Assembly (NCBI GenBank): GCA_910574995.1
Contig: CAJTCS010000007.1
Location: 62,001-126,000, forward strand
Origin: Oscillospiraceae bacterium
Lineage (GTDB): Bacteria > Bacillota > Clostridia > Oscillospirales > Acutalibacteraceae
Reading direction: 5' to 3'
DNA length: 64,000 bases
The notes below the pieces were generated by a model. That model had not been told where the DNA came from. It ran no database searches and worked only from the letters and a program-made list of their open reading frames with translations. Both the position numbers and the translations under genes were made by a program. Each line of letters opens with the position of its first letter. Position 1 is the stretch's first letter. Shown one piece after another: positions 9,516 to 49,841 of the stretch.

Positions 9516-9580
9516 CACCGTAAAGCCCCACGGAAGCCATACACCCTCAAACTTAAATTAAGAATTAAGGAGAGTGCCCT

Positions 9581-25233: not shown

Positions 25234-25436
25234 CGTTTTTTCATAGAATCTACTTTTTCCATCAATCCGCTTCTGCCCGCAAAAGCCTTTTTATCCATTT
25301 GATACAAGGCAAATGCCCCAAAACCGCAGCGCGCCGCCGTTTTGGGGGCTTGCCCTTCTGCTTGTAGGGCAAAGGGGTATACAGGCGGGATATCCGTGTT
25401 ATCAGGGCCCCAGGCGTTGGGGGCCATCAGGCTGCC

Positions 25437-25465
25437 TTGCTTTCCCGCCTTTTTTGTGGTACACT
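25437..25465 (+). promoter_or_regulatory. Promoter of rlmD
   Basis: TTGCTT, 17 bp, TACACT, about 35 bp before the ATG. Confidence 0.6.
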
Positions 25466-25498
25466 GGGGGAAATCCCCCACAGCAAAGGATGGAGCCC

Positions 25499-27172
25499 AT
25501 GGATCTGAAAAAGAATGACTGTATCGAATTGGAATTTACCGCCATGACCTCCCAGGGCCAGGCTATTGGGCATTACAGCCCTGCCCCAGGGCTGGGCAAG
25601 GGGATAGCCGTGTTCGTCCCTTTGGCGGCGCCGGGGGACCGGGGGCTGGTGCGCATCGTTAAGGTTGGGAAGACGTTTTGCTATGGTAAGCTGGAGAAGA
25701 TCCTTGCCCCGTCCCCACACCGGGTGCAGCCCGATTGCCCTTGTTTTGCCCAGTGCGGCGGTTGTTGTTACCGGCACATCACCTATGAAGAGGAACTGCG
25801 CGTCAAGTGGCAGCGCGTGCAGGACGCCCTGGAGCGGGTGGGGGGATTCCCCCAATTGCCCCTGCGGCCTATCCTGGGCGCAAGCTCCCGTAACGGCTAC
25901 CGGAACAAAGCTTTGCTGCCCCTGGGCGCCGGTCCCGGCGGCCGGTTAGCCATGGGCTTTTATGCGGTGAATTCCCATCGGATCGTAGACTGCCAGGCAT
26001 GCCAGCTGCATCCGCCGGTTTTCAACCAGGCCATGGAAGCTTTCCGCTTGTGGGCCAAAACCTATGGGGATGCCCCATATGATGAGTTTTCCCACACCGG
26101 CGTCATGCGCCGGCTGTATCTGCGCATGGGGGCGCGCACCGGCCAGGTGATGGCCTGCGTGGTGGTGAACGGCCGGGGCCTTTCCCACGAGAAAGAGCTG
26201 ATAGATTACCTGCGGCAAGCCATGCCGGGGCTGTCCACAGTAGTTATAAACAGCAACCGGGACCGCACCAACGTGGCGCTGGGCAAGGGGCTGCGTACCT
26301 TATATGGGCCTGGCTACATCGAGGACGAGCTGTGCGGGCTGCGGTTTTGCATTTCGCCCCTGTCCTTTTACCAGGTGAACCCGGCCCAGGCCCAGAGGCT
26401 GTATGAGAAGGCCGGGGAATATGCCGGCCTGACTGGTAGCGAGACCCTGTTGGACCTCTATTGCGGCACAGGGACGATTGGGCTGTCCATGGCGGCCAGG
26501 GCGGGGCAAGTGGTCGGCGTAGAGGCAGTGCCCCAGGCAGTGGAAAACGCCTGGGAGAATGCCCGGCGCAACGGTATCGGGAATGCAGAATTCATCTGTG
26601 CAGACGCGGCCCAGGCTGCAGCCCAGCTGGCCCAGCGGGGGCAGCGTCCTCAGGTCGTCATATTGGACCCGCCCCGCAAGGGCGTAAGTGGAAGCCTGGT
26701 GGAAACAGTGGCTGCCATGGGGCCCCAGCGTGTGGTATATGTCTCCTGCGACCCCGCCACCTTGGCCCGGGACTTGAAAGCCTTTTCCGGGCAGGGCTTT
26801 GCGCCTGTGGAGGCCACCCCAGTGGACATGTTCCCTGGCACTGCCCATGTGGAGACGGTAGTATTATTGTCCAAACTTCGAGCGGAGCATCATATTGAGG
26901 TTGACCTGGACTTGGGCGAAATGGATTTGACTTCTGCCGAGAGTAAGGCCACCTATGAGGAAATCAAGGCGTATGTGTTGGAGAAGTTTGGGTTGAAAGT
27001 TTCCCACTTGTATATCTCTCAGGTTAAACGGAAGTGTGGACTGGAGGTCGGACCGAACTATAATTTGCCAAAGTCCGAGGGCCAGAGAGTGCCACAGTGT
27101 CCGCCAGAAAAGGAAAAGGCAATCATGGCAGCACTGGAACATTTCCAGATGATTGAAGGGAGTGACAGTTAA
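25499..27172 (+). CDS. rlmD: 23S rRNA (uracil-5-)-methyltransferase RlmD/RumA, chimeric with mobile-element tail
   Basis: 557 residues; the family is usually about 450. It has a TRAM domain (about 1-60), an Fe-S cluster site (CPCFAQCGGCC), SAM motif LLDLYCGTGTIGLSMA, ILDPPRKGV and the catalytic YVSCDPATLARDL. The enzyme makes m5U in 23S rRNA. The normal C-terminus HVETVVLLS is reached at residue 450. The last 100 residues (KLRAEHHIEVDLDLGEMD onward to FQMIEGSDS) are encoded by the integrated element and have lower GC. Such tails are common where integrative elements use this gene as target, and they keep the enzyme whole. The ATG at 25499 has AAAGGA 8 nt upstream. Confidence 0.93.
   Translation: MDLKKNDCIELEFTAMTSQGQAIGHYSPAPGLGKGIAVFVPLAAPGDRGLVRIVKVGKTFCYGKLEKILAPSPHRVQPDCPCFAQCGGCCYRHITYEEELRVKWQRVQDALERVGGFPQLPLRPILGASSRNGYRNKALLPLGAGPGGRLAMGFYAVNSHRIVDCQACQLHPPVFNQAMEAFRLWAKTYGDAPYDEFSHTGVMRRLYLRMGARTGQVMACVVVNGRGLSHEKELIDYLRQAMPGLSTVVINSNRDRTNVALGKGLRTLYGPGYIEDELCGLRFCISPLSFYQVNPAQAQRLYEKAGEYAGLTGSETLLDLYCGTGTIGLSMAARAGQVVGVEAVPQAVENAWENARRNGIGNAEFICADAAQAAAQLAQRGQRPQVVILDPPRKGVSGSLVETVAAMGPQRVVYVSCDPATLARDLKAFSGQGFAPVEATPVDMFPGTAHVETVVLLSKLRAEHHIEVDLDLGEMDLTSAESKATYEEIKAYVLEKFGLKVSHLYISQVKRKCGLEVGPNYNLPKSEGQRVPQCPPEKEKAIMAALEHFQMIEGSDS
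26841..26880 (+). other. attL: left junction of mobile element 1 in rlmD
   Basis: The codons for HVETVVLL (26846-26869) mark where host-like rlmD ends and element DNA begins. GC content and codon use fall immediately after. Similar codons recur at 39672-39695 and 54873-54896. The exact crossover cannot be fixed from sequence alone; the shared core is around GTGGA. Confidence 0.7.
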
Positions 27173-27418: not shown

Positions 27419-27488
27419 CACAAAAACGCCATAGCAGATGCACTACTGCAAGTATCCTAAAATTTATGTGCTACCAACAATTTGTGGC

Positions 27489-27520
27489 GAGGGTAGATTG
27501 TGTTTATACAATCTACCCTC
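27489..27520. terminator. Bidirectional terminator
   Basis: Perfect 13-bp stem GAGGGTAGATTGT / ACAATCTACCCTC between convergent genes, with T-rich flanks on the plus side. Confidence 0.8.
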
Positions 27521-27527
27521 GATAGTT

Positions 27528-27851
27528 TTACACTTTATAAGGTGCATTTTCATCTGCAAGTTCTATGCTGTATCGTTCTATTGCGCTGCGATATAGACTT
27601 GTGCTTTCATCCTTAAAGCGCGTTTTATTGCTAGATAAATCCTTCAATTTTGAATAAAGGTTGCGATAAATTATTTTATGGGCGGCATGTTGCACAAGGT
27701 TTTCATCGTACTCATCCATCTCCGCGTCGTAATCGATAATCAAATCCAACATCTTCAGCAAATCATCTTTTGTAATCTGATCCAAGGGGACTTTGTGTTC
27801 TCCGTCAAGAGAATAATATCCCTTTCCACTCTCAATCAGCAGGCATTTCAT
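27528..27851 (-). CDS. Small protein overlapping the PHP-ATPase gene
   Basis: 107 residues, acidic and mostly helical in appearance. It starts MKCLLIESGKGYYSLDG and contains LLKMLDLIIDYDAEMDEYDE. No family recognised. Its start lies inside the 3' end of the PHP-ATPase gene (20-bp overlap), which suggests translational coupling and a shared job, for instance as partner, immunity or sensor subunit. Last gene before a terminator. Confidence 0.6.
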   Translation of the reverse strand: MKCLLIESGKGYYSLDGEHKVPLDQITKDDLLKMLDLIIDYDAEMDEYDENLVQHAAHKIIYRNLYSKLKDLSSNKTRFKDESTSLYRSAIERYSIELADENAPYKV

Positions 27852-29859
27852 ATGTTGTCCTCCGTTCAATATAGGCCGGTTCTCCAGCTTCTAAACAATC
27901 GAGAAGCACATCGTGTTTGTTAATTACCTCACCACCTAGTTCAGTTAAAACTGCACTTGTGGGAAAGCCGCTAAAAATTTGATAGGTTACTTCGCCAGTT
28001 TCACTGACAACTTTTCGTGTATACAAAATATAGTCTGGTTTTACAGATGCACCAATTGTATTGTTATGGGTAGCAACAACGACAGGTACAATTTGTGAAA
28101 TGTCCTTGATTAACTTATTCACATCACTCTTTAAGAACAAATTATCAAAGGAAGACTCTGGTTCATCCAATAGCAAAATATCATATTGTGTTGCATCCGC
28201 AAGTTGTTCAAGTAAATTGTATTCCGACCGCTCACCGCCTGATGCTCTAAAGCCATACTTGTTAAAAACCTCATATTTAATACTCACAAAATACTTATAG
28301 TAATCAGATACCGGCAATTCATCTTTATTCCTCAATATACCAAGATACCTATATGGTTCGTCATATTCTGCAAAGGCATCAGAAAATGTAAGAACCTTCC
28401 CACTAAGGTCTTTTAATCCTTTTGCACCTGTAAAAGGGCGAGCAGTAGCGACAACATTAAAGGAATGTAGTTCTTTAGAGTAAATAACCTTTTCCCTCTT
28501 AACAGCATTTGCAATCTGGATGAACCGGTTAACTTTTCTTTTGTTCATCAGCGAATTGTAGAAATCTATGTCTGGAATAGGAATTGCAGCCGTCCGAACT
28601 CTTAATTCAGCCTTAATTGCTTCAAGAATGTCATTAAGGTAGGCTTTTTTCAAAAGCAACTCTTTTTCTTCTGCGTACTTTTTCATAAGCGCCACTGCAA
28701 GGCTTATAAGAGATTGACGATTAACGAATTGATGGATTATTGAAGCAAACTCTTTATTCTCAATCAAGACATTTACTGCACTGATAAGCCTTTCAAGCGA
28801 TGACAGATCGCTTGAATCAAAAAGTGGTTCACTGAAAAGGCTTGTCTTTGAAAATATATCCTCCTTATCGGCATCGGAGGCCAATTTAAGCAACACTCTA
28901 ACATAGTCTTCCAGTGCCGCTTCATCTCTATCCAAATATATGGTTCTAACATCTTCAACCACGTTTTTGAATGGCATTAAATATTCTTCTGAAATTGATG
29001 CACAACGATTTCTCAATGTCTCTTCAAACTTTTTTTCATCAAGTTCTGCATCTCTTGTCAGTAGAGAAAACTGCCTAATATATTTAGGATTATCCACGTT
29101 TTTGGAAATTTCATCCAGCGTATAAGTTTTTCCTGATGACCGCTCTCCCAAAAGGACAGTTAATCCTGTCGAAATCTTTAGCCCATTGCTGAGAATATCA
29201 GTAAGTTGATGTCCGTCATCCAGAGAAAGAGCGACTTTGCTTTTATCAGCAAACGCTTGCTTGATAGATGAAATAGAAATCGTGTCAACATCGACATAAG
29301 TATATCTTGCAGGAAAAGATGTAAGTCCCCTTTTTATTCTAATATCGCTAAAGAATACAGGGATGAGTTTATCTTCTGCTTTTTTACAGCTTTCAAATTT
29401 CTTAATGCTGTTTACTTCTCCACATGTAATAAATTGGTTCAAAAACGGAACTTTATCTAACAATAGAGCAGGACTTTTTTCATAATGGGGAATTAAAATA
29501 TATTTATCAACTGATGAAAAAATTTCTTTGAATTGCGATGCGCTTAAATAATCGGTAGCCGTAGAAACCAAGGCACTGACCCTTTCACAACGCACAGCAA
29601 AATCAGCAACATCCTCATAGCTGGTGATTACCAGCAGATGGCCCTTTTCAATGTCAATTTCAATGCCAGGAAATACGGGGATAGACAAATTTCCACATAT
29701 TGTCTCATATTGCTGTTTATCAAACTGGTTGTGATTAGTAATAGCGATTGCATCCAGTGACAGTTCGCTTATATAATCAACTAGCACGGATTGATCAAAT
29801 GTAAAATCCTGATCACTTACAGTCGCTATCGTATGAATGTGAAAATCTATTTTTTTCAT
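27832..29859 (-). CDS. PHP-domain protein fused to an ABC/SMC-type ATPase (TrlF-like), candidate defence protein
   Basis: 675 residues. N-terminal PHP phosphoesterase: DFHIHT (His7, His9), AITNHNQFD, FPGIEID (Glu) and LIPHYEK (His). The last expected Asp-x-His motif reads FFSDIRIK, so its His is missing. ATPase: Walker A GERSSGKT (238-245), a helical middle of about 280 residues, signature SGGERS (about 540), Walker B LLLDEPESSFDN and switch ATHNN. The layout resembles TrlF-type PHP-ATPases and the nuclease-ATPase pairs of phage defence. AGGAGAG precedes the ATG at 29859. It sits behind a methyltransferase and HNH nuclease, on the same strand. AT-rich relative to the host. Confidence 0.8.
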   Translation of the reverse strand: MKKIDFHIHTIATVSDQDFTFDQSVLVDYISELSLDAIAITNHNQFDKQQYETICGNLSIPVFPGIEIDIEKGHLLVITSYEDVADFAVRCERVSALVSTATDYLSASQFKEIFSSVDKYILIPHYEKSPALLLDKVPFLNQFITCGEVNSIKKFESCKKAEDKLIPVFFSDIRIKRGLTSFPARYTYVDVDTISISSIKQAFADKSKVALSLDDGHQLTDILSNGLKISTGLTVLLGERSSGKTYTLDEISKNVDNPKYIRQFSLLTRDAELDEKKFEETLRNRCASISEEYLMPFKNVVEDVRTIYLDRDEAALEDYVRVLLKLASDADKEDIFSKTSLFSEPLFDSSDLSSLERLISAVNVLIENKEFASIIHQFVNRQSLISLAVALMKKYAEEKELLLKKAYLNDILEAIKAELRVRTAAIPIPDIDFYNSLMNKRKVNRFIQIANAVKREKVIYSKELHSFNVVATARPFTGAKGLKDLSGKVLTFSDAFAEYDEPYRYLGILRNKDELPVSDYYKYFVSIKYEVFNKYGFRASGGERSEYNLLEQLADATQYDILLLDEPESSFDNLFLKSDVNKLIKDISQIVPVVVATHNNTIGASVKPDYILYTRKVVSETGEVTYQIFSGFPTSAVLTELGGEVINKHDVLLDCLEAGEPAYIERRTTYEMPAD

Positions 29860-29928
29860 AATGGTACTCTCCTGCAAAGACAATTCTAAATGACTCCGTA
29901 CTATTTGTTCAGAACAATCAAGCCATTC

Positions 29929-31083
29929 CTATATGTCACTCTTCCTTCGATTACACTCCCGACACCGCATCTTGCAATTCTCCGGGACAGTCCTGCCGCC
30001 TCTGCTCCAGGGCGTAATGTGGTCGGCCTCCATCTCATCAAAGTCGTAGCGTACCTTGGCTTTTCCCGCCGCTTGACAATCGGGGCAAATACCGCCCTGG
30101 CGCTCATATGCCTCCCGCTTTTGAGCGGTAGTGAATGCCCGGAGGCTCAAATACTTTTCTTCTCTGGTGAGGACATAGGTATAGACGCCTTTCTTGTTTG
30201 TCACTTCATCATCTATCAGCAGAGCCTTGACTTCCCGCTCCAGCGCGTCTGGGTCAAGTTCTGCGTCCTTGAAGCGATTGTAGAGCAGGCCCCACTCGAT
30301 GCCCTTCATCTCTTTCCGCTTGACCGGGAAAATCGCTTCCACCCACTCGATGACCCGGCGGAAGTAGAGCCAAATCTGATTGGCATTCTCGTCCTGCTGG
30401 TGGAGAGCCATATATTCCTCGATAGACCCTAGGCCGTCCCTGGCAGCGATCCACTCAATGGCCGTTTCCAGGTACTCCTGCCGGATAGGGGAGCCATTCA
30501 CATAATCCTTAGCGATACGATAGGCGGTACAGTTCGGCTTGGAAAAATGGAGCTTTGCGTCAGACAGCCACGGGCCGGTGTAGGATGTATTCCGCAATTC
30601 TTGGGGCGAGAGAACCTTGCCTGCTATGTTGATGATTTTGAACCAGTCCAGCACCTCGGAGGGTGTGCCGTCACAGACGTAAATATCCAGCACATAATCC
30701 CGGATGCGCTGTTTCTGATCTTCTGGCAGATTGAAGAAATACAGATTATCTACCGAAAAGCATTGCTCATAGCTCTGCCGGTCAGCCTCGTCCTTGACCG
30801 CTGCATAGCGGCAAATGGAGATAGTGCGCTGTTGACCGTCCATCAGTTCATAACGTCCATCGGCAGTCTTGGCCCAGTACATCACATTGATAGGAAATTT
30901 CTTTTTGACAGAGCGGATGACCTCATCCCGGTCTTTGTCGGGATAGATGTATTCCCTCTGATAGGCGGGGCGAACATCCAGCCTGCCTCCATAGGCCACC
31001 ACGCCCTCAAGGCCATCCGGCCCTTTTTCTTCATAGCCGTCAATCAGTTCTTGAACTGTCACTTGGATACGGTCAATATTCAT
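29929..31083 (-). CDS. DUF262 plus HNH endonuclease protein (GmrSD-like)
   Basis: 384 residues. The N-terminal DUF262 domain carries the nucleotide-binding motif MDGQQRTISI (82-86 is DGQQR), as in GmrS and SspE. The C-terminal HNH nuclease has CPDCQ, DHITPWSRGG, ENCKMRC and CNRRKSD. Such proteins cut DNA and are found in type IV restriction and other phage defence systems. The ATG overlaps the stop of the methyltransferase gene (ATGA), so the pair is translationally coupled and probably works as a modification-restriction unit. Confidence 0.85.
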   Translation of the reverse strand: MNIDRIQVTVQELIDGYEEKGPDGLEGVVAYGGRLDVRPAYQREYIYPDKDRDEVIRSVKKKFPINVMYWAKTADGRYELMDGQQRTISICRYAAVKDEADRQSYEQCFSVDNLYFFNLPEDQKQRIRDYVLDIYVCDGTPSEVLDWFKIINIAGKVLSPQELRNTSYTGPWLSDAKLHFSKPNCTAYRIAKDYVNGSPIRQEYLETAIEWIAARDGLGSIEEYMALHQQDENANQIWLYFRRVIEWVEAIFPVKRKEMKGIEWGLLYNRFKDAELDPDALEREVKALLIDDEVTNKKGVYTYVLTREEKYLSLRAFTTAQKREAYERQGGICPDCQAAGKAKVRYDFDEMEADHITPWSRGGRTVPENCKMRCRECNRRKSDI

Positions 31084-32069
31084 TTCTGTATCCTCCTAAT
31101 CAGGATACGGGCGTAGGTTTCTTTTCCATTGATTGTAAACCGATGCCCATATTGGGGATTATCTGATACATAGCGGTCTACCCCTAACATTTCAAACTGT
31201 TCTGGGCTATACTTATCAAGGAATGTAATGGGAACTCCCATAATGCCGTCATATCCATCTGGTATCTCCGCTGTCTTATTTACGTTGATGGCATTGTATT
31301 GATCGTACTTTGGGTATTTGTCCGGGGTATATTGGATATAAAGATCAATCGGCTGGTGGCGCTTCTCAATATCCATATTGGTAAACCAGCAGATGTTTCC
31401 CATGCGTCTCCACTTCTGCCCTGTCTCATCTATTTTGAAATCGGTTCCTTTGGGTTCATAGTAATCGGGAACACGAAACCAAAAATGACCGCTATTATAC
31501 CCGAGCCATACTTTATCTTCTTGGAAATAGTGGAAAATTTCACTTATAATTGCGTGGTTCATATTCCCCAAAATCAAAAACTGCTTACCGCTGTTTATGA
31601 GCAGAGGAAGATACTCTTTCATCAACGAGAAGGGCGGATTTGTCACTACAATGTCGCACTCTTCCAACAAAGCTAAACACTCTGGGGAGCGAAAGTCGCC
31701 GCTGCCCTCCAGGGAAGTCCTCACATAGTCCGGTAAACCAATCTGCTCGTCATGGTCGCTGCTGACGATTTCAAATTTATAACTGGGTTTGTCCGCCTCA
31801 TAGTGGGTGGTAATCAGCTTCTTAATGCCCAGTTGAGTAAAGTTCAGTTGGAAGTAGCGGAAGAAATTGCTGGTGTAACCGCCAAGGCCGTCACCGAAAT
31901 GGTCTTGCCCATCTTCCCCAATCGCTGGGTCGTCAGCGTTGCAGAAAATGACCTTGCCCTTGAAATATTTTCGATAATGCCGCAGCTCGTCCTCTATCGT
32001 AGAAAGTTGGGTATAAAACTCATCCGTCTTTCCGGCCCTGGACATATGCAGGTTGCTGTTGCCCGCCAT
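31080..32069 (-). CDS. Adenine-specific DNA methyltransferase, EcoRI type
   Basis: 329 residues, close to the length of M.EcoRI. It has an N-terminal KTDEFYTQLSTIEDEL, a VIFCNADDPAIGEDG segment and the catalytic DIVVTNPPFSLM (NPPF 144-147) of N6-adenine methyltransferases. It probably methylates a target site and so shields the element and host from the coupled DUF262-HNH nuclease. GGGAGGTG lies 7 nt before the ATG at 32069. It is first in the minus-strand cargo operon behind a sigma-A promoter. Confidence 0.88.
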   Translation of the reverse strand: MAGNSNLHMSRAGKTDEFYTQLSTIEDELRHYRKYFKGKVIFCNADDPAIGEDGQDHFGDGLGGYTSNFFRYFQLNFTQLGIKKLITTHYEADKPSYKFEIVSSDHDEQIGLPDYVRTSLEGSGDFRSPECLALLEECDIVVTNPPFSLMKEYLPLLINSGKQFLILGNMNHAIISEIFHYFQEDKVWLGYNSGHFWFRVPDYYEPKGTDFKIDETGQKWRRMGNICWFTNMDIEKRHQPIDLYIQYTPDKYPKYDQYNAINVNKTAEIPDGYDGIMGVPITFLDKYSPEQFEMLGVDRYVSDNPQYGHRFTINGKETYARILIRRIQK

Positions 32070-32162: not shown

Positions 32163-32663
32163 TCATACTGGATTGATTATGATAATCTCTCGTCCCTTCT
32201 TTCGGGCATACCTCACTGTCATCGCCGTCCCGCCCCGCCACTCGCCGTTATAGACAGCCAGCAGGCAAGCGGCGTGATCGACCAGATAGCGGTTGCGTTT
32301 CAGCATACAATCCTTACTGTACTCCCGGCTCACATACACAACCTCGTCCGCCTGCCCCAGAATAGAAAAATAGAGTTCCCGCGCTGAAGCTAACCACTCG
32401 TCCGCCTGCCCCTCGCAGGGCAGGACACAGTGGAGTTTCAGCGCGGGATTTTCTTTTTTCAAGGCCAGAACAGCCAACGATGCCCATGTATCGGTTCCCT
32501 CCGCCATGCCAGAGAGGAAGTCCGTATATCCCGCCTCTACCAACTTGACGATTTCTCTGGTAAGCGCCTGTTTCAGAGCTACACACTTGGTATCTGCCTC
32601 GTTATATCCCCACGGAAATTTCCGTGGACGGTGGCCCGTAAAGGCACAGCATTTCTCAATCAT
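32163..32663 (-). CDS. SLOG-family protein (DUF1273/YpsA-like)
   Basis: 166 residues. A Rossmann-like fold begins CCAFTGHRPRKFPWGYNE, with TDFLSGMAEGTDTWAS and a LPCEGQADEW segment, as in DUF1273 SLOG proteins. SLOG domains bind nucleotides or ADP-ribose-like ligands and often sense signals in mobile or defence loci. It is divergent from a small XRE gene across a palindromic operator. The stop is only about 95 bp from the methyltransferase start. Role on the element unknown. Confidence 0.82.
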   Translation of the reverse strand: MIEKCCAFTGHRPRKFPWGYNEADTKCVALKQALTREIVKLVEAGYTDFLSGMAEGTDTWASLAVLALKKENPALKLHCVLPCEGQADEWLASARELYFSILGQADEVVYVSREYSKDCMLKRNRYLVDHAACLLAVYNGEWRGGTAMTVRYARKKGREIIIINPV

Positions 32664-32692: not shown

Positions 32693-32737
32693 TATGGGGG
32701 TTATATCCCCTTAATAAGAGAGATTATAACCCCCATA
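32693..32737. promoter_or_regulatory. Palindromic operator between SLOG and XRE genes
   Basis: Perfect 13-bp inverted repeat TATGGGGGTTATA (32693-32705) and TATAACCCCCATA (32725-32737) in the divergent promoter region. It is the likely binding site of the adjacent XRE repressor. Confidence 0.65.
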
Positions 32738-32766
32738 CTAGTTGATGTCAATCAGGGGGTGAGGTC

Positions 32767-36585: not shown

Positions 36586-36798
36586 TTGAACATCAGAAAT
36601 GAAATCAAAGCGCAGATCGTCCGCGCCGGGTACACCATGCAGGAGGTTGTAGATATGCTCGCCACTGAACACGGCTGGAGCGACAGCGTGTCCAATCTCT
36701 CCGCCAAATTGCAGCGGGGTTCGCTACGATACATTGAGGCCATTCAGCTGGCCGATGTGCTGGGATTTGATTTGGTCTGGCAGAGGAGGGACAAATGA
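36586..36798 (+). CDS. Small HTH-like protein of the mob operon
   Basis: 70 residues: a phage-repressor-like helical domain (IRNEIKAQIVRAGYTMQEVV, DMLATEHGWSDSVSNLSAKL, QRGSLRYIEAIQLADVLGFD). TTG start at 36586 with AGGAGG 7 nt before it. Its stop overlaps the relaxase ATG (ATGA), so it is coupled to mobilisation, perhaps as an autoregulator or relaxosome accessory. Confidence 0.7.
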   Translation: MNIRNEIKAQIVRAGYTMQEVVDMLATEHGWSDSVSNLSAKLQRGSLRYIEAIQLADVLGFDLVWQRRDK

Positions 36799-37769
36799 TG
36801 CTGAAACCGCAGTACGCCATTCTCCGCTTTGCCAAATACAAAGGGCCGGAGATCGGCCACATCGAGGCCCACAATGAGCGCACCAAGGAGAAGTACGCCA
36901 GTAATCCCGATGTGGACACCAGCCGGAGCCACCTCAACTTCCATCTTGTTCAGCCCGAACGGAAATACCGGGCCGAAGCAGAGCGGCAGATCGCCGAGGC
37001 CAAGTGCCGTATCCGCAAGGACAGCATTCGGGTGGTGGAGACGTTGGTGACGGCCAGCCCGGAATTCTTCAAGGGCAAAAAGAAAGCGGAAATCAGAGAA
37101 TTCTTCGAGGAAGCCGTTCGTTTCATAGAAAAACATCAGTCGAAAGACACGATCATATCCGCCGTGGTGCATATGGACGAGAAAACACCCCATATGCACC
37201 TTTCTTTTGTCCCTCTAACGGCGGACGGGCGGCTGAGTGCCAAGGACATTGTGGGCAACAAGAAAAAACTGACTTGGTGGCAGGATGAATTCTGGAAGCA
37301 CATGGTAAAGAAATGGCCTGACCTGGAGCGCGGCGAGAGTGCAAGCGAGACAGGCAGGACGCATATCCCGCCCCGGCTGTTCAAGGAAGCGGCCCATCTC
37401 AACCGGCAGCGGGATATGCTGTTGCAGCTGTTGGGCGAATTGAATCCCCTTAACGCCAAAAAGAAAAGCACCGAGATTGAGGCACTGCTGGAGCAGTATA
37501 TTCCCGGCGTGGAGCGTATGCAGACGAAACTGCGGAAGTACGATGCCGCCTACAAGAACCTCAGAGCCGAAAACGCTGCCTTGAAAAAGAAGGATGACGC
37601 CAGCCGGGAGAGTGTCAAGCACCGCCTGGAAGTGGCACAGCAGCTTCAGGAATTTGAGGATTTAAAACGGGCGGTGGAGAATGTGCCGCCAGAGGTTTTG
37701 CAGGCGTATCAGCAGAGTTCTATACTGACACAGAAGGAGGTTGGCGCAAAGAATGCCCTTGGCCGATGA
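36795..37769 (+). CDS. MobV-family relaxase (Pre/Mob)
   Basis: 324 residues. N-terminal AILRFAKYKGPEIGHIEAHN, then the histidine motif VVHMDEKTPHMHLSFVPL (HxDExTPHxH) and a C-terminal coiled coil (LRAENAALKKKDDASRES). It nicks oriT and leads the strand in mobilisation by a helper conjugative element. GAGGAGGGA precedes the start. It makes element 1 mobilizable rather than conjugative. Confidence 0.9.
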   Translation: MMLKPQYAILRFAKYKGPEIGHIEAHNERTKEKYASNPDVDTSRSHLNFHLVQPERKYRAEAERQIAEAKCRIRKDSIRVVETLVTASPEFFKGKKKAEIREFFEEAVRFIEKHQSKDTIISAVVHMDEKTPHMHLSFVPLTADGRLSAKDIVGNKKKLTWWQDEFWKHMVKKWPDLERGESASETGRTHIPPRLFKEAAHLNRQRDMLLQLLGELNPLNAKKKSTEIEALLEQYIPGVERMQTKLRKYDAAYKNLRAENAALKKKDDASRESVKHRLEVAQQLQEFEDLKRAVENVPPEVLQAYQQSSILTQKEVGAKNALGR

Positions 37770-37935: not shown

Positions 37936-38029
37936 TATAATCACAGACGTGATTTGAATGTCCAAACTTCTTGTTGGAGAAGAAACCGCTCTCCAACAAG
38001 AAGCGGATAACAGGAAATGTGAGGTTATC

Positions 38030-39712
38030 ATGCGCAAAGAAAAAGAGAAGGTTTATATCTACACCAGAGTATCCACCACTATGCAGATCGACGGCTACTC
38101 CCTGGATGCTCAAAAGGCCAGAATGAAAGCGTTCGCAGACTTCAACAATTATGAGATCGTTGGAGAATATGAGGATGCAGGCAAATCCGGAAAATCTATC
38201 GAGGGCAGAATGCAGTTCAGCCAGATGATGGAGGACATCAAATCCGGGAAAGACGGCGTTTCCTTTGTTCTGGTATTCAAACTCTCCCGCTTTGGCAGAA
38301 ACGCCGCAGATGTTCTCTCCACTCTGCAAATCATGCAGGACTTTGGGGTGAACCTGATTTGCGTAGAGGATGGTATTGATTCCTCCAAGGATGCCGGGAA
38401 GCTGATGATTTCTGTCCTCTCCGCTGTGGCTGAAATCGAACGGGAAAACATCCGTGTCCAAACCATGGAGGGCCGTATCCAGAAAGCTAGGGAAGGCCGC
38501 TGGAATGGGGGCTTTGCGCCCTATGGCTATCGTCTCGTGGACGGTAATCTGGAGATTAACGAGGAAGAAGCGGAGGCCATTCGCGTTATATTTGAGCAGT
38601 ACATCTCCACTGACACCGGCGCAAATGGTATCTCAAAGTATCTGGAAACTCACGGTATTCGTAAGATGCAACGCCAAAATGGGAAAAATCCGCTGTTTGA
38701 TGCCGGTTTAATCCGTAAAATCTTGAAAAATCCTGTCTATTGCGGAAAAATTGCTTACGGGCGACGAAAGACAGAGAAAGTCCACGGCACCAGAAACGAC
38801 TACCACCTGGTAGAGCAGGATAATTATCTTTTGGCGGACGGTCAGCATGAGGGGATTGTGTCTGAGGATGTCTGGCAGATGGCCCAAGTGAAGCTGCTGG
38901 CCCAGGCTAAGAAATACGAACATGTGAACAAAGGGCAAAACGAGCGGACCCATTTGCTCACCGGAATTGTAAAGTGTCCCATCTGCGGGGCTGGTATGTA
39001 TGCCAACAAGAGCGTCAAATATAAAAAAGATGGGACAAAATATAAAGATTTTTTCTACTATGGGTGCAAACACCGTACCATGCAGCGGGGACACAAATGC
39101 GATTACCGTAAGCAAATCCGGGAGGAACTGTTGGATGATGCTGTGGCTGAGGTCATTGTCAAGCTGGTAAGCAATCCCAAGTTTGCGGCCATGATGCAGG
39201 AAAAAATCAATATGAAGGTAGACACCGCCGCTATCGACCAGGAAATTGCCAACTACGAAAAGCAACTGCGCCAGAGCTATTCCATTAAGTCCAAGCTGAT
39301 GGAGGAAATAGACGGCCTTGACCCGGACGACCGGCACTACATCAAACGAAAAGCCGACCTTGACGACCGGCTTTACAAGATGTACGATAGGATTGAAGAG
39401 ATTGAGTCACAGCTTATCACCGCTCGGGCCAAAAAGCAGGCCATTGAGGCGGAAAAGCTGACCGGAGACAATATTTACAAGGTTCTGATTTATTTTGAAA
39501 AGCTGTATGCGGTGATGAACGAGGTGGAACGGCGGCAATTGTTTGAGGCATTGATCTCGGAAATCCAGATTTATGAGGAACGCCAGCCCAACGGGCAATG
39601 GCTGAAATCCATCAAGTTCAAGCTGCCAATCATTGAACAGGACATGGATTTGAGTTTGGACAATGATGAACAAGTGGAGACTATTGTGTTGCTACAAAGA
39701 GAAAACTCGTAG
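38030..39712 (+). CDS. Large serine recombinase (integrase of element 1)
   Basis: 560 residues. Resolvase domain with catalytic Ser15 (IYTRVSTTMQIDGYSLDAQK), LVFKLSRFGRN and the SAVAEIERENI helix. Recombinase domain (GGFAPYGYRL, LIRKILKNPVYCGKIAYGRR), zinc ribbon (CPICGAGM...CKHR...CDYRKQ) and a long coiled coil. It catalyses excision and integration without host factors. GTGAGGTT precedes the ATG at 38030. The C-terminus ends in QVETIVLLQRENS, echoing the RlmD C-terminus, so the gene end lies at an attachment site. Confidence 0.92.
   Translation: MRKEKEKVYIYTRVSTTMQIDGYSLDAQKARMKAFADFNNYEIVGEYEDAGKSGKSIEGRMQFSQMMEDIKSGKDGVSFVLVFKLSRFGRNAADVLSTLQIMQDFGVNLICVEDGIDSSKDAGKLMISVLSAVAEIERENIRVQTMEGRIQKAREGRWNGGFAPYGYRLVDGNLEINEEEAEAIRVIFEQYISTDTGANGISKYLETHGIRKMQRQNGKNPLFDAGLIRKILKNPVYCGKIAYGRRKTEKVHGTRNDYHLVEQDNYLLADGQHEGIVSEDVWQMAQVKLLAQAKKYEHVNKGQNERTHLLTGIVKCPICGAGMYANKSVKYKKDGTKYKDFFYYGCKHRTMQRGHKCDYRKQIREELLDDAVAEVIVKLVSNPKFAAMMQEKINMKVDTAAIDQEIANYEKQLRQSYSIKSKLMEEIDGLDPDDRHYIKRKADLDDRLYKMYDRIEEIESQLITARAKKQAIEAEKLTGDNIYKVLIYFEKLYAVMNEVERRQLFEALISEIQIYEERQPNGQWLKSIKFKLPIIEQDMDLSLDNDEQVETIVLLQRENS
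39670..39712 (+). other. Second att-like site, between elements 1 and 2
   Basis: The recombinase gene ends in codons for QVETIVLL (39672-39695), which match attL (26846) in GTGGAGAC and in the encoded peptide. It is the likely right end of element 1 and left end of element 2. Confidence 0.55.
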
Positions 39713-40321: not shown

Positions 40322-40445
40322 GCACACAGATACATTCCTCTCCATCGTCCAGCAGGAGGCAGTTGCCGCCCACGTTGTTGCAGCACTCCCGCGTCAGCCT
40401 CCGGGCCTTGCGGTACTGCGGATAATTCATCTTCGGTATGCTCAC
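40308..40445 (-). pseudogene. Truncated Cys-rich VLP-domain protein
   Basis: 45 residues from a GTG that overlaps the relaxase stop. The sequence (PKMNYPQYRKARRLTRECC, GGNCLLLDDGEECICVQS) matches the N-terminus of the Cys-rich VLP family, usually encoded right after MobP relaxases. It then hits a stop at the junction with the truncated replication gene; intact members are about 110-120 residues. Confidence 0.7.
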
Positions 40446-41776
40446 AGCTCTTGCTTCCTTTCCTGTTGCCGAGGCGTCACCCGCAAAATGCCGTCCACAT
40501 TCTGCTTGATGATGCCGTACTCTTTCAACTCCTTTTTCACTTCGCCGTACTTGGCGTACAGCCGTTCCTTTTCCTCCGACAGCCGGGCATACTCCGCTTT
40601 CAATGCGGCCAGATCGGACAGCTTCTTCACGCCGCCCTCCCGCAAGGCACGGCCCGCCGCCTCGTACAGTATCAGGGCGCTTTCATGCTCCTGCCGGAAC
40701 CGGGACTTGTCCGCCGCCCGACGGTACTCCATCGCCACGGGCCGGGTCTGCTTGTAGGTGGTGACGTTCTTTATCAGCACGGCCATTTCTCCCAAACGCC
40801 GCTCCGCCGTTTTCAGCGCGGCGGCGGCTTCCTCACTGGCGGCGCTGATCTCCGCCACCCGGCTTTCCAGATCAGAATAGGCGTCAATCCCATGCTCGGT
40901 CAGGAAGTTCATCGTCTTTGCCGCCTGCTGCAAGTTGTGTATCTTCGCCCACCGCGCATAGCCCGCCGATTGCTGGGCCTTGATGCTGTTCTCAATGTCG
41001 ATACGCAGGGAAATACCCTTGCGGACTTTCGGCTTCCGTGCGGCGATGGCCCGGCCCTGGATGCGCTCGGTGATGGCTTCCTCGGTGTAGGCTTCGCCCA
41101 GCGACTTGCACCTGGTAAACCGCTCCTGGCCGGGGGCGCGGAACGACACAAATTTGCCCCGCTTGATTTCATAGCCCTGCTTCTCCATGAGCCGCAGAAA
41201 ATCTTCAAAATCCTTTGCCTGGGGGATAGCGGCGTCAATGGCAATTTTCAGCTTTGCTTTCCAGCTCCGGCCCCGCCGCTGGGCGTCCCACTCGGCATAG
41301 GACTGGCCTCTGTCCTGGCCCGGCTTCACCACGGACAGCCCTTGTTCCCGGCACAGCCGGTCGCTGGTGCGCCGGATGAAAGAATAGCTTTGCTTGTTGG
41401 AAACATACTTCCGGCAGTTCACCATATCCACAGCGCAGAAAATGATGTGATTATGGACATGGCCCTTGTCGATGTGGGTTGTCAGCACATAGGGGTATTT
41501 GCCCTGCAACACCTCGTCGGCCAGCCGTTTCCCGATCTCATGGGCCTGCTCCGGCGTGGCCTCGCCGGGGGCAAAGGACTGTATCAGGTGGTGGCCCAAG
41601 TTGTTCCCTTTCTGGATGGCCTGGGCCAGCAGCATTTCAAATTCTATGTCCGCCGTTTCATAGGAACAGCCAAAGGAGGACACCAGCATTTTCCCGTCCG
41701 TCTTGTCCGGGTTCTCAATGTAGTCAAGGGCCTTTTTCAGCGTTGACTTGATAGGATGTATCTTTGTAATTGCCAT
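40442..41776 (-). CDS. MobP-type relaxase (Tn1549-like)
   Basis: 444 residues. It begins MAITKIHPIKSTLKKALDYI. The metal-binding histidine motif HIDKGHVHNHIIF (101-113) is intact and followed by NKQSYSFIRRTSDRLC. The C-terminal third is a helical coiled coil. It nicks oriT and pilots the strand through a conjugation channel; no channel genes remain here. It overlaps mobC by 40 bp. Confidence 0.92.
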   Translation of the reverse strand: MAITKIHPIKSTLKKALDYIENPDKTDGKMLVSSFGCSYETADIEFEMLLAQAIQKGNNLGHHLIQSFAPGEATPEQAHEIGKRLADEVLQGKYPYVLTTHIDKGHVHNHIIFCAVDMVNCRKYVSNKQSYSFIRRTSDRLCREQGLSVVKPGQDRGQSYAEWDAQRRGRSWKAKLKIAIDAAIPQAKDFEDFLRLMEKQGYEIKRGKFVSFRAPGQERFTRCKSLGEAYTEEAITERIQGRAIAARKPKVRKGISLRIDIENSIKAQQSAGYARWAKIHNLQQAAKTMNFLTEHGIDAYSDLESRVAEISAASEEAAAALKTAERRLGEMAVLIKNVTTYKQTRPVAMEYRRAADKSRFRQEHESALILYEAAGRALREGGVKKLSDLAALKAEYARLSEEKERLYAKYGEVKKELKEYGIIKQNVDGILRVTPRQQERKQEL

Positions 41777-42792: not shown

Positions 42793-42837
42793 TCATAGGA
42801 TATGCTATCGTTACAATCAAAAAAAGGGGTTGATTAT

Positions 42838-43545
42838 ATGGATATGATCTTAAAAACAACTGTCCTCTGTAAATGCTTCAAAGGGCAAATGGCCGTGAAC
42901 AATGTGTCACTGAATATTCAGCGCAACTCAATTTATGGGCTGCTTGGGCCGAATGGTGCGGGGAAATCTACCATCTTGAAAATGATTACAGGTATTCTCC
43001 GTCCCACCTCTGGCTTGATTGAATTTGACGGCCATCCGTGGAGCCGGGCAGATTTGGAAAACATTGGCGCTTTGATTGAGATGCCTCCGCTCTATGAAAA
43101 TCTCTCGGCCTATGAAAACCTGAAAGCCCGAACACTGGCCCTGGGGCTTCCAGAAAGCCGCATCAAGCAAGTGCTTGGTATTGTTCAGCTTGAGAATACT
43201 GGAAAAAAACGGGCAGGCCATTTTTCGCTGGGAATGAAACAGCGGCTTGGAATTGCCTTGGCTCTGTTGTCACAGCCCAAATTGCTTATCTTGGACGAAC
43301 CGACAAATGGGTTAGACCCGATTGGAATTCAAGATTTGCGTGAGCTTATCAGAAGTTTTCCGCGAAAAGGGATCACCGTCATATTGTCCAGTCATATACT
43401 CTCCGAAGTTGAGCAAATTGCTGACCACATTGGCATTATATCTGCCGGACATTTAGGCTATGAAAACGAAATCCATAAGAACCACGATCTGGAACGTATT
43501 TTTATGGATATTGTTGGCGCACATAGGGAAAGGAGTGAGAAATAA
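42838..43545 (+). CDS. Lantibiotic-protection ABC transporter ATPase (cassette A)
   Basis: 235 residues. Walker A GPNGAGKST, signature FSLGMKQRLGIA (LSGGQ-equivalent LGMKQ typical of bacteriocin-immunity ATPases), Walker B LLILDEPTNGLDP and switch SSHILSEVEQ. It resembles NisF, SpaF, NukF and CprA. It powers export of lantibiotics from the membrane for self-protection or resistance. AAGGGG precedes the ATG at 42838. Its TAA overlaps the next ATG. Confidence 0.9.
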   Translation: MDMILKTTVLCKCFKGQMAVNNVSLNIQRNSIYGLLGPNGAGKSTILKMITGILRPTSGLIEFDGHPWSRADLENIGALIEMPPLYENLSAYENLKARTLALGLPESRIKQVLGIVQLENTGKKRAGHFSLGMKQRLGIALALLSQPKLLILDEPTNGLDPIGIQDLRELIRSFPRKGITVILSSHILSEVEQIADHIGIISAGHLGYENEIHKNHDLERIFMDIVGAHRERSEK

Positions 43546-44276
43546 TGTTCGGGATTGTACGTTCGGAACTTCTTAAAATGCGGCACAGCTTCTCGATGAA
43601 ATTGATTTTTGGTGCGCCATTGGCAACTGTACTTGCCGGCTTTTTATTGAGCAGTCATGCAGTACAATATTCGGCTTACAACTGGTGGTACACTATGCTT
43701 CTTCCTGTTGTGACCGCACTGTGGGCCGCAGGTACAGTTATCCGTGAGAAAAATACAGGGCTGCAAAACATTGTTTGTTTGCCGTTCCCTTCTGCGAAAA
43801 TATGGATTGGCAAAGGACTTGCCCTGGCTGCTGTGTTTTTTATCAGCAATCTGCTCATGTGGTTATTTACTACGGGAATTGCCAGTTTTACGACTATGAA
43901 TATTTCGCCGCTGGACAGCATAATCGGCTGTATGCTGCTGTTCCTTACTTGCTTGTGGCAACTCCCTTTTGTTATGCTGATAGCAAGCAAAACAGGGTAT
44001 CTTCCCTCTGTGCTAATAACTTTTGTGCCGAATATTGTTTCATCTACTATTGGCGCAGAAAAAGCATGGTTCTTTCTTAATCCATACGCTATTCCGGCCC
44101 GTGTAGTTTGCCCATTTTTCAAGATACGGCCTAACGGACTTCCCATTGAGGACGGTTCTCCGTTATTGGCAGTTGAGCACATTTTTCCCGCTCTTGCCAT
44201 TAGCTTGGCATTAGCTGCTGCCTCCTTTTGGATTTGCTCTAAATTGCTTGGAAGTGGGGGGAAGTCCAATGACTAA
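43545..44276 (+). CDS. Lantibiotic-immunity ABC permease, MutE/EpiE type (cassette A)
   Basis: 243 residues with six predicted membrane segments (for example PLATVLAGFLLSSHAVQYSA and YTMLLPVVTALWAAGTVI) and the RNA-like short loop EKNTGLQNIVCLPFPSAKIW typical of ABC-2 immunity permeases. It is one of two permeases forming the channel with the upstream ATPase. The start overlaps the ATPase stop; the gene overlaps the next one by 8 bp. Confidence 0.85.
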   Translation: MFGIVRSELLKMRHSFSMKLIFGAPLATVLAGFLLSSHAVQYSAYNWWYTMLLPVVTALWAAGTVIREKNTGLQNIVCLPFPSAKIWIGKGLALAAVFFISNLLMWLFTTGIASFTTMNISPLDSIIGCMLLFLTCLWQLPFVMLIASKTGYLPSVLITFVPNIVSSTIGAEKAWFFLNPYAIPARVVCPFFKIRPNGLPIEDGSPLLAVEHIFPALAISLALAAASFWICSKLLGSGGKSND

Positions 44277-45021
44277 CTATATCTGCTATTTGAAAAGTGA
44301 TTTATACAAATTATGTCATTCCTGCTTTTTCCTTCTGCACGTCATTTTTGCCGTATGTGGGGCGGCTATGATGTTACTGTATGCGGGCGTTTCCCAAAGC
44401 GATGACATCAATAAACTGGCTGCTTATTTTCAGATCATGGCCGTTGCTTTTCCCTTTGCAATCGGGATTGTCTGCTATGTTGCAGCAGAACAGGAGGCAA
44501 AAGCAGGACATTTTCAAAATATATTGACACTTCCGTACAGACAAAAAGCCGCTCTTTCCAAATTGACTATTTTGCTTGTGACTGGACTTTTGGCAACCGT
44601 ATTGAGTAGTGTACTATTTGGTGCGCTATTTCCACTGGTTGGCGGCACAACAGAAATTCCTTCCGGATTTTATACAGTAATTCCACTTGTTCTTTGGGGC
44701 AGTAACATTTTGCTGTATGGTATTCATTTCGTATTAGCAATTCGATTTGGTAAAAATTTGGGAATAGGGATTGGAGTGTTCGGGAGCCTTTTGGTTGCGC
44801 TTCTCCAAACAGGATTAGGCACGGGGATCTGGTTTGTCATCCCTTATGGCTGGGGTATTCGTTTTTCTTCTTACGTTCTGGAAACGACCTTTGGCCTAAT
44901 GCCGCCAGACAGAATAGGTATGGATTTTGGCATCCTCTTTTGCATATTGTCAACGTGTGCTATAATAGGAATTGCAGTCCACTGGTTTTCCAGATATAGC
45001 GGAAATCGGTCAGCCGATTGA
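44269..45021 (+). CDS. Lantibiotic-immunity ABC permease, MutG type (cassette A)
   Basis: 250 residues with six hydrophobic segments (FLLHVIFAVCGAAMMLLYAG, FPFAIGIVCYVAAEQEAKAG). The QEAKAGHFQNILTLPYRQKA loop matches the equivalent loop of the partner permease. GGGGGGAAG precedes the ATG at 44269. Together the A operon encodes a complete FEG-like immunity exporter. Confidence 0.85.
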   Translation: MTNYICYLKSDLYKLCHSCFFLLHVIFAVCGAAMMLLYAGVSQSDDINKLAAYFQIMAVAFPFAIGIVCYVAAEQEAKAGHFQNILTLPYRQKAALSKLTILLVTGLLATVLSSVLFGALFPLVGGTTEIPSGFYTVIPLVLWGSNILLYGIHFVLAIRFGKNLGIGIGVFGSLLVALLQTGLGTGIWFVIPYGWGIRFSSYVLETTFGLMPPDRIGMDFGILFCILSTCAIIGIAVHWFSRYSGNRSAD

Positions 45022-45038
45022 GCGTGGAGGTAGAATTG

Positions 45039-45398
45039 ATGAATTGGTTGGGCAATATTATTTGGTTCTTGTGCTGCGGACTATGGCAGGGAATTTCTTG
45101 GCTGGTTGCCGGTGTTTTATGGAGCATTACCATTGTCGGTATTCCGATTGGCCGCCAATGCTTTAAGTTTGCGTCACTCGCTTTCTTCCCTTTTGGAAAA
45201 GATGTGAATTATGGCGGCGGTGCTATGTCCGCGATTGCCAATATCCTCTGGCTCCTTATCAGCGGTATCCCTTTGGCGTTGGTGGCGCTGCTGAATGGGG
45301 TGCTTTTGTGTTGTACGATTATCGGGATTCCTTTCGGAGTACAGTGCTTCAAAATGGCAAAACTGGCGTTGATGCCTTTTGGCGCAACAGTAATGTAG
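45039..45398 (+). CDS. YccF/DUF307 small membrane protein
   Basis: 119 residues made of two repeats of one unit: a hydrophobic segment followed by IPIGRQCFKFASLAFFPFGK in the first copy and IPFGVQCFKMAKLALMPFGA in the second. This is the YccF domain. Function is not established. It lies inside the operon between transporter and response regulator, with GGAGG before the ATG, so it probably contributes to membrane-stress sensing or resistance. Confidence 0.82.
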   Translation: MNWLGNIIWFLCCGLWQGISWLVAGVLWSITIVGIPIGRQCFKFASLAFFPFGKDVNYGGGAMSAIANILWLLISGIPLALVALLNGVLLCCTIIGIPFGVQCFKMAKLALMPFGATVM

Positions 45399-45445
45399 AT
45401 GTCCTTGGAGCGCAAATATATAAATCAGGACAGAGAGGTGAGATA

Positions 45446-46105
45446 ATGGCGCATATATTAGTAGTGGACGATGATATTGCTATGCTCCAGCTTGTCAGGC
45501 GTGTTTTAGAAAAAGATCAGCACTTAGTTACACTACAATCAAATGCCAAGGCAGTCACAGAAATGGATTTTTCAAAGTTTGGCTTGATTTTGCTGGATGT
45601 TATGATGCCGGAAATGGATGGTTTTAACCTCTGCAATCAAATCCGCGACCGTGTAGATTGCCCAATCATTTTCCTTACTGCAAAAACGCAGGAAAGTGAA
45701 ATTGTTCAGGGATTAGGACTTGGAGCAGATGACTATATTACTAAGCCGTTTGGGACAAACGAACTTAGAGCGCGGGTAAATGCTCACTTGCGGCGTGATG
45801 TACGAGAAAAGAAAAACAGCTTTTCAATATCCGGCGTCATTTTCCGCCTCAATGCAAAAGAAGCTGAAATCAACTCAAAAAAGGTTCCGTTGACAAAAAG
45901 TGAGTACGAAATATGCGAATATCTGGCGCGGCATCATGGACAAACATTTACGCGGGAGCAAATCTATGAGGCGGTCTTTGGATTTGACGGAGAAAGTGAT
46001 AGTTGTGTTATCTCTACTCACATTAAGAATATACGCGGGAAGTTAGCTGAATTTCACTTGTCAACGATTGAAACAATTTGGGGGGTTGGCTATAAATGGG
46101 TGTAA
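45446..46105 (+). CDS. OmpR-family response regulator (cassette A)
   Basis: 219 residues. Receiver domain with the acidic pocket (VVDDD) and phospho-acceptor Asp51 (ILLDVMMPEMDG), the Lys switch (YITKPFG) and a C-terminal winged helix (LTKSEYEICEYLARHHGQTF; STHIKNIRGKL). It likely activates the ABC operon when a lantibiotic is sensed. GAGGTGAG precedes the ATG at 45446. It overlaps the kinase gene by 10 bp. Confidence 0.92.
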   Translation: MAHILVVDDDIAMLQLVRRVLEKDQHLVTLQSNAKAVTEMDFSKFGLILLDVMMPEMDGFNLCNQIRDRVDCPIIFLTAKTQESEIVQGLGLGADDYITKPFGTNELRARVNAHLRRDVREKKNSFSISGVIFRLNAKEAEINSKKVPLTKSEYEICEYLARHHGQTFTREQIYEAVFGFDGESDSCVISTHIKNIRGKLAEFHLSTIETIWGVGYKWV

Positions 46106-47451: not shown

Positions 47452-47455
47452 TAGG

Positions 47456-47485
47456 ATGGGTGGCTTTTATAGCCACCCATTTTTT
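47456..47485 (+). terminator. Terminator of lantibiotic operon A
   Basis: 10-bp stem ATGGGTGGCT / AGCCACCCAT with a 5-nt loop and a T run. Confidence 0.9.
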
Positions 47486-47488
47486 GCA

Positions 47489-47510
47489 AATCTTTATGAA
47501 ACCTTCAAAA
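47489..47510 (+). promoter_or_regulatory. Second copy of the 22-bp repeat element
   Basis: Nearly identical to 42771-42792 (one change, C for T). It would precede the next transcription unit, which is now reduced to the truncated HTH gene, and may mark a lost member of the regulon. Confidence 0.45.
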
Positions 47511-47593
47511 ACTTCTCTTATTATATCTCTAAAGTAAATGATCTGCCCAGCGGCAGAAAAGAAAAAAACCGTTGCTGGGCAGGCCGATTTCCC

Positions 47594-47791
47594 ATGCCGG
47601 TGATCGAAGCCGCCCGCGCCGGGGATACCGAGGCCGTGGAATGTGTCTTGCGGTACTACGAGGGCTACATAAACAAGCTCTGCACCCGGACGCTGTATGA
47701 CGAGTACGGCAACCCCTATGTCTGCCTGGACGAGTGGATGAAGCACCACCTGGAAAACAAGCTCATGCAGGCTATCGTCGGTTTAGACTGA
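47594..47791 (+). pseudogene. 5'-truncated HTH_16-type gene
   Basis: 65 residues (MPVIEAARAGDTEAVECVLR, ...DEWMKHHLENKLMQAIVGLD). They match the last 65 of the intact paralogue at 54208-54444 at roughly 85-90% nucleotide identity. The upstream start and the sigma gene that normally precedes it are missing. Confidence 0.65.
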
Positions 47792-47900
47792 CGGCAACCG
47801 GCCCGGCAGGGCAGGCGGAACACCTTAAAACAAGCTCATGCAGGCTATCGTCGGTTTAGACTGACGGCAACCGGCCCGGCAGGGCAGGCGGAACACCTTA
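47754..47900 (+). repeat. 73-bp tandem duplication
   Basis: Units 47754-47826 and 47827-47899 are identical. Each ends in a 40-bp block (47788-47827 and 47861-47900) that is also present at 54441-54480. Confidence 0.9.
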
Positions 47901-47991
47901 CCCTTTCCATGTTCCCCCGCCTCCGGCTCGGCTCTGCACCTTGACAAAGAAAGCCCGCAAAATAACGGCAGGCATTTTCTGAAAAAGACGC

Positions 47992-48030
47992 AAAAAACAG
48001 ATGCCGCTTCGCTCTCGCAAAACGGCATCT
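47992..48030 (-). terminator. Terminator of the XRE gene of cassette B
   Basis: Minus strand: AGATGCCG / CGGCATCT stem (47999-48006 with 48023-48030) followed by T (47992-47998), overlapping the stop codon. Confidence 0.75.
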
Positions 48031-48373: not shown

Positions 48374-48395
48374 ATCACATCACCCTATAACAGTA

Positions 48396-48453
48396 TATAG
48401 TTCATAGGGTGTCCTTTGGAATGATATGCAGTTTAGAACGGTTTATAGTTCAT
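48396..48453. promoter_or_regulatory. Operator pair B (TATAGTTCAT twice)
   Basis: TATAGTTCAT at 48396-48405 and 48444-48453, 48 bp apart, upstream of the XRE gene. Confidence 0.6.
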
Positions 48454-48470
48454 CCACAGTGTAAATACCT

Positions 48471-49838: not shown

Positions 49839-49841
49839 CTG

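Follow-up and report, generated by a model that had tools for sequence, protein, structure and literature searches.

Four neighbouring genes in a mobile element of an Oscillospiraceae bacterium: very probably two candidate defence cassettes side by side

A run of genes on the minus strand of an Oscillospiraceae genome raises the question whether four neighbours with defence-like domains form one system or more than one. The genes lie in a stretch of 64,000 nucleotides (assembly GCA_910574995.1, contig CAJTCS010000007.1, positions 62,001 to 126,000), referred to here as the window, and encode an EcoRI-family adenine methyltransferase, a DUF262-HNH nuclease, a protein with a PHP domain and an ABC-type ATPase, and a small protein. 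A sequence-only reading of this DNA had described the arrangement, and all of it was found again: the four open reading frames (ORFs) are on the same strand at the positions given for them, the methyltransferase and nuclease genes share an ATGA, the ATPase gene begins 69 bp beyond the stop of the nuclease gene (about 70 bp had been estimated) and the small gene overlaps the ATPase gene by 20 bp (Table 1). That reading had left two interpretations side by side, namely that the four genes act together or that they are two adjacent systems. The second is very probably correct, since the two pairs are each conserved and diverge in step within themselves, are separate across genomes and differ in G+C content, and since the first pair has been exchanged beside the second in a related element. 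The methyltransferase and nuclease are, as predicted from their sequences, an ordinary two-gene type II restriction-modification (R-M) cassette, and the ATPase and the small protein are by profile match the two-gene candidate defence system PDC-M49 of PADLOC (hereafter M49, with M49A the ATPase and M49B the small protein).

The methyltransferase and the nuclease match the PADLOC type II R-M models MTase_II (PDLC03297) and REase_II (PDLC03418) over their full length, and their order and spacing are those of other such pairs. The nuclease model matched 27 of the 295 genomes of the window's order (Oscillospirales) at 30 loci, one of which is the window itself; the remaining 29 together with 11 loci from viral contigs gave a set of 40, the window copies L001, L004 and L032 being omitted from the counts. 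In all 40 independent loci a methyltransferase gene adjoins the nuclease gene on the same strand, and in 37 of them the distance between the two is from -20 to +18 bp. The exceptions are L030 (288 bp), L038 (138 bp, near a contig end) and L045, in which two EcoRI-type methyltransferases stand in tandem and are followed by a single DUF262-HNH nuclease (2818-4981). The motif DGQQR (residues 82-86 in the window) is present in 40/40 nucleases and NPPF in 38/40 methyltransferases, the other two ending early at contig ends, while D354, H355, N369 and N378 of the nuclease are invariant across 35 aligned proteins. Moreover the divergence of one protein follows that of the other (Mantel r 0.81, n=35, none of 5000 permutations as high), and this holds for the 29 closest pairs (r 0.59, 0 of 5000 permutations); loci L026, L029, L030, L034, L038 and L045, which are truncated or irregular, were also omitted from this test. 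Matches to the nuclease were obtained in 90 plasmid records, and among the matches listed an EcoRI-family methyltransferase is annotated at the nuclease match in Aeromonas, Mammaliicoccus, Variovorax, Gordonia, Ruania, Sulfitobacter and Lactiplantibacillus. Comparison with the sequences of solved structures matched the DUF262-HNH protein to HNH nucleases and gave no match for the methyltransferase at E 0.1. What distinguishes the window pair from other type II pairs of the EcoRI-methylase and DUF262-HNH kind is the adjoining M49.

Both M49 proteins match the PADLOC PDC-M49A and PDC-M49B models over nearly the full model length and no difference from that entry was found in the window pair. The sequence-only reading could match the whole set of four genes to no named system; this still stands for the set, but each half has a PADLOC entry. 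M49A carries a Walker A motif GERSSGKT (residues 238-245), the signature SGGER (540-544), DEPE (565-568) and THN (597-599). All the motifs named at the outset (NPPF, DGQQR, HNH, PHP, Walker A, SGGE and DEP) are present, the weak point being that the Pfam models PHP (22.8 bits, cut-off 26.4) and ABC_tran (17.7 bits, cut-off 25) both score below their cut-offs. Fifteen intact M49 loci were compared, comprising the window, L003, the plasmid stretches L005-L012, L058 and L059, the viral contigs L043 and L044, and L087; L057, whose M49A is split into two ORFs, was omitted. The Walker A, signature, Walker B and His-loop residues are kept in 15/15 M49A proteins, with E/Q and R/A changes in the signature only. 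In all 15 loci the gene order is constant and the small gene overlaps that of M49A by 20-26 bp. The divergence of the two proteins is also in step (Mantel r 0.96, n=12 non-redundant loci, 0 of 5000 permutations), the near-duplicates L003, L012 and L059 being left out.

The set of nine metal-ligand positions expected in the PHP domain is one that we take over from PolIIIalpha, and eight of them are kept in the M49A of the window, the ninth being R174. Two subgroups are complementary at these positions, with H125 and R174 in 10/15 loci and E125 and H174 in the other 5/15, the latter being the Staphylococcus/E. casseliflavus subgroup. By sequence comparison with solved structures M49A resembles generic ABC/SMC-type ATPases only, with Rad50, SMC and AriA among the weak matches. 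For M49B the same comparison returned chance-level rows. Its AlphaFold2 model (mean pLDDT, the predicted local distance difference test score, 90) has three strands, a helix at residues 28-41 and a long helix at 56-101, and structural comparison of this model gave no telling match.

M49A is rare in the genomes searched. With the window's genome included it was found in 1/295 genomes of the order and 2/398 of the family with model PDLC04680 (E 1e-30), and in 1/398 of the phylum with a sister model (E 1e-20), thresholds at which 0 control genomes matched; E 0.001 was unusable for the M49A model because its ABC ATPase part matches 12/14 control genomes. By tblastn, relatives were found in 56 plasmid records (45 Enterococcus, 9 Staphylococcus, 1 Rhizobium and 1 Phaeobacter), of which 11 hand-picked ones had their surroundings inspected, the PLSDB annotation being incomplete. 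Two relatives were found in viral contigs with alignment A1, while three single M49A queries found none there; 50,697 phage records held no relative, nor did the E. coli genomes in a DNA search with the pair of L043. A collection of genome contigs yielded one relative, 99% identical. The term PDC-M49 is absent from the literature searched, a scope outside which preprints and most subscription papers lie.

Across genomes the two pairs go separate ways. M49A (E 1e-30) is absent from 26 of the 27 genomes of the order that bear the nuclease, the exception being the genome of the window. Of the 29 R-M loci, 20 were widened to 8.9-16.5 kb and M49 was matched in none of these, many of which sit amid apparent housekeeping genes; the other nine were inspected with flanks of 1.5 kb. 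Seen from M49, in 12/15 loci an R-M gene was neither annotated nor recognised in the stretch inspected, these stretches ending early in L008, L043 and L058 and the absence in L043 and L087 being judged from ORF translations of which only some were scanned. The proposal that the four act together finds no support in these counts. In addition the genes differ in composition, with a G+C content of 0.37 and 0.38 for M49A and M49B, 0.45 for the methyltransferase and 0.53 for the HNH gene, which hints at different origins.

A related element in an uncultured Oscillibacter (L003) has the same frame as the window, with a rumA-like gene carrying the element's tail, DUF6061, the small gene, the PHP-ATPase, a slot for R-M genes and a YpsA gene. 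At the DNA level the two are closest in the M49 genes (identity 0.985-0.99), followed by DUF6061 (0.95), the tail (0.90) and YpsA (0.83). The R-M slot of L003 contains a C5-methyltransferase and a NotI-type nuclease, from families unlike those of the window, and next to M49 a 55-bp piece of the DUF262-HNH gene, from its 3' end, survives as a relic (48/55 bases identical, with small indels). The R-M cassette has therefore been replaced beside an intact M49; between elements, the content of this slot changes and M49 is retained. The M49A genes of the two elements differ by 25 synonymous and 6 non-synonymous codons of 676, a synonymous excess that is a sign of purifying selection on the protein. 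A more distant locus from another genus of the family (L087) has the M49 pair, with an ATPase 50% identical, adjoining a rumA-like gene; over the 19.9 kb inspected, in which some of the ORFs were scanned, R-M genes were not recognised. It was thus the second of the two interpretations, two adjacent systems, that gained from the constancy of each pair, whose members diverge in step, and from the replacement in L003.

Three observations weigh against a complete separation of the cassettes or against the function given to the second. M49 stands directly beside R-M genes in 3/15 loci, the window with its EcoRI-type pair, L003 with its C5-methyltransferase and NotI-type nuclease, and L044 with type I hsdR, hsdM and hsdS. 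Together with a single promoter-like site able to drive five genes, this adjacency makes joint action in the window possible. Moreover the PHP activity of M49A is putative, with R174 at one of the nine ligands that we presume. Apart from the 15 loci, the split M49A copy of L057 has an AlwI-type pair about 3 kb away on the opposite strand.

These observations bear differently on the alternatives. The idea that the four genes are a single composite system, in which methylation marks the self DNA and both the HNH and the PHP nuclease serve as effectors, can appeal to the common strand, the tight spacing and the strong promoter-like site heading the run; however, each pair is found without the other and in L003 another R-M pair has taken the place next to M49, so that this idea was rejected on the co-occurrence counts and the exchange, and we consider it extremely improbable. 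That M49 adjoins R-M genes of three unrelated types, oriented alike each time, speaks rather for M49 as a guardian or backup effector of the adjoining R-M system, off while restriction works and with its PHP nuclease freed when a phage protein blocks it. A parallel might be drawn with PrrC and EcoPrrI and with PARIS and anti-restriction proteins; guardian and backup-effector ideas have been put forward for other ATPases in two papers (PMC12707154, PMC12839542), and a distant PHP-ATPase relative, TrlF, sits between hsdR and hsdS in L056. Against this stand the 12/15 loci without a recognised R-M gene, the fact that the window and L003 represent one element lineage, and the tendency of defence genes to cluster anyway, for which the figure of 3/15 is uncorrected. 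We regard this role as distinctly unlikely, and there is just as little to favour its extension, in which M49 would be a portable restriction guard that kills or stalls the cell and elements would swap R-M genes in one slot while keeping the guard. If M49 did guard restriction, a PHP-type effector would join the class of PrrC and PARIS.

A somewhat less improbable alternative, still unlikely, is that M49 is mainly a maintenance module of mobile elements similar to toxin-antitoxin pairs, with M49A toxic and M49B neutralising, so that loss of the element harms cells and phage defence is secondary. The obligate overlapping small partner and the location on plasmids and mobile elements are in agreement with it. 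In toxin-antitoxin pairs the toxin gene usually does not come first, whereas in M49 the large and presumably toxic gene does, the reverse of that order; PADLOC has the pair among its defence candidates, and guarded defence effectors show the same traits, so that the two readings overlap. Two independent cassettes remain for us the preferred reading of the block, and phage defence by either of them in this genome is presumed.

For the R-M cassette, of which the pairing, the motifs and the in-step divergence are direct observations, in the host DNA the EcoRI-family enzyme would methylate adenine at a short site, and DNA that is unmethylated at that site would be cut by the DUF262-HNH enzyme, probably with use of a nucleotide by its DUF262 domain. 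For M49 the conserved pair, the nearly complete catalytic motifs and the purifying selection were observed directly. M49A would have a PHP phosphoesterase at its N-terminus next to an ABC/SMC-type ATPase, and its gene overlaps that of the small partner; the ATPase most likely detects an infection and in response gates the PHP domain, and this domain may then cut nucleic acid, either tRNA or DNA, and M49B could restrain the enzyme or relay the trigger. Whether M49A is such a gated PHP nuclease seems to us evenly balanced.

Known systems offer several points of comparison. The PrrC, PARIS and Septu systems and the OLD-ABC proteins couple a nuclease to an ABC-type ATPase, as M49A would; PrrC and PARIS are described in one paper as releasing the nuclease upon infection (PMC12707154), Septu and AriB as cutting tRNA in two others (PMC13096335, PMC12409363), and OLD-ABC as backup effectors in a fourth (PMC12839542). 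M49A differs in that its nuclease would be the N-terminal PHP domain, and from guardians of the PrrC and PARIS type in a linkage to R-M genes at 3/15 loci only. Nearer in architecture are Ppl and TrlF, in which, as in M49A, a PHP domain is followed by an ABC-type ATPase. The TrlF of L056 matches the Ppl model at 119.5 bits (E 3.2e-35) and the M49A model at 59.5 bits, and the C-terminal ATPase of M49A can be aligned with it (hhalign probability 99%, 165 columns). The M49A of the window has no match to the PADLOC Ppl model at E 0.01 and reaches 69.4 bits against the cut-off of 350 of the TrlF family (NCBIfam NF045780), and the small partner is a feature of M49A. Membership of M49A in Ppl or TrlF was therefore rejected on profile scores, although a distant relation is clear. 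The nearest PHP-ATPase having a phage link is ppl, which one paper (PMC13152194) reports as a PHP and ATPase gene linked to phage resistance by genome-wide association in S. epidermidis, noting that a clear mechanism has not been described. A literature search for TrlF gave no relevant paper among the matches listed. The TrlF gene of L056, an IncC plasmid, is flanked by annotated type I R and S subunit genes (1996-10023).

The nuclease of the R-M pair shares with GmrSD-type nucleases a DUF262 domain with DGQQR and a His-Me finger nuclease, as characterised in two papers (PMC4619093, PMC12707154). Its C-terminal nuclease domain matches PF01844 and PF14279 (HNH, HNH_5), with no DUF1524 match, and it differs from GmrSD in being paired with a methyltransferase; because of this pairing, cutting of modified DNA in the GmrSD style is disfavoured.

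The R-M pair is thus of a catalogued kind and M49 is a catalogued candidate whose mechanism we infer. With the two apart, M49 is separated from a neighbour that would confuse experiments, and its minimal unit becomes two genes of about 2.3 kb. The window and L003 can be regarded as a natural experiment in which one ATPase pair, carried by related elements, adjoins two unrelated R-M pairs.

Table 1. Positions of the two gene pairs and of neighbouring features in the window
Feature	Position	Strand	Details
EcoRI-family adenine methyltransferase, predicted M of the R-M pair	31080..32069	-	329 aa; PF13651 EcoRI_methylase E 1.6e-105; NPPF; PADLOC MTase_II PDLC03297 E 4.2e-101
DUF262-HNH nuclease, predicted R of the R-M pair	29929..31083	-	384 aa; PADLOC REase_II PDLC03418 E 7.4e-127, residues 7-383; GmrSD_N 1.2e-17; HNH 9.2e-11
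ATGA shared by the methyltransferase stop and the nuclease start	31080..31083	-	
HNH gene 3' end, counterpart of the relic in L003	29929..29983	-	48/55 bases identical, small indels
PHP-ABC ATPase, PDC-M49A	27832..29859	-	675 aa; PADLOC 911.9 bits; motifs kept in 15/15 loci
Small partner protein, PDC-M49B	27528..27851	-	107 aa; PADLOC 120.0 bits; adjoins M49A in 15/15 loci
Overlap of ATPase and small gene	27832..27851	-	20 bp; 20-26 bp across 15/15 loci
YpsA/SLOG gene at the head of the same-strand run	32163..32663	-	PF06908 E 4.7e-28; retained in L003
Sigma-70-like promoter site upstream of YpsA/SLOG	32723..32751	-	12/12 consensus bases, 17-base spacer
Inverted repeat between small gene and convergent DUF6061 gene	27488..27521	.	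folding z -7.2; T-rich tail on plus strand
Mob_Pre protein	36795-37769		
Large serine recombinase	37958-39712		
MobA-type relaxase	40442-41776		

The YpsA/SLOG gene, which the sequence-only reading had not mentioned along with its promoter-like site, is a fifth gene of the run and is assigned to neither module; its G+C content is 0.54. YpsA-like matches adjoin the R-M pair in L027 and L042 too. Promoter-like sites are not in excess in the region, with 16 found against 12.0 in shuffled sequences (standard deviation 3.6).

The mobile element that bears the block sits in a rumA-like host gene, at its 3' end, and the block is close to the left boundary of the element. The rumA-like proteins of three relatives (G189, G694 and G693) align with the window only up to 26875-26884, and the identity between the window and L003 rises at the same place, which is therefore taken as the left end of the element; its right end was not found. 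The rumA-like ORF (25313-27172) has a tail of about 95 residues contributed by the element, and sequences 38-39% identical to this tail occur at C1:5919 and C6:150399 of the same genome. When 14 stretches, some of them short, from other rumA or tail sites were compared with the window by blastn, M49 DNA was absent, and DUF6061 was found at 80% in one of them (L074). The element also bears the genes of the Mob_Pre protein, the large serine recombinase and the MobA-type relaxase (Table 1) and, further on, ORFs that by eye resemble two clusters of ABC transporters with sensors and regulators (42802-52951). Far from the four-gene block, a second ORF of 1060 aa (5288-8470) has a start resembling a PHP domain.

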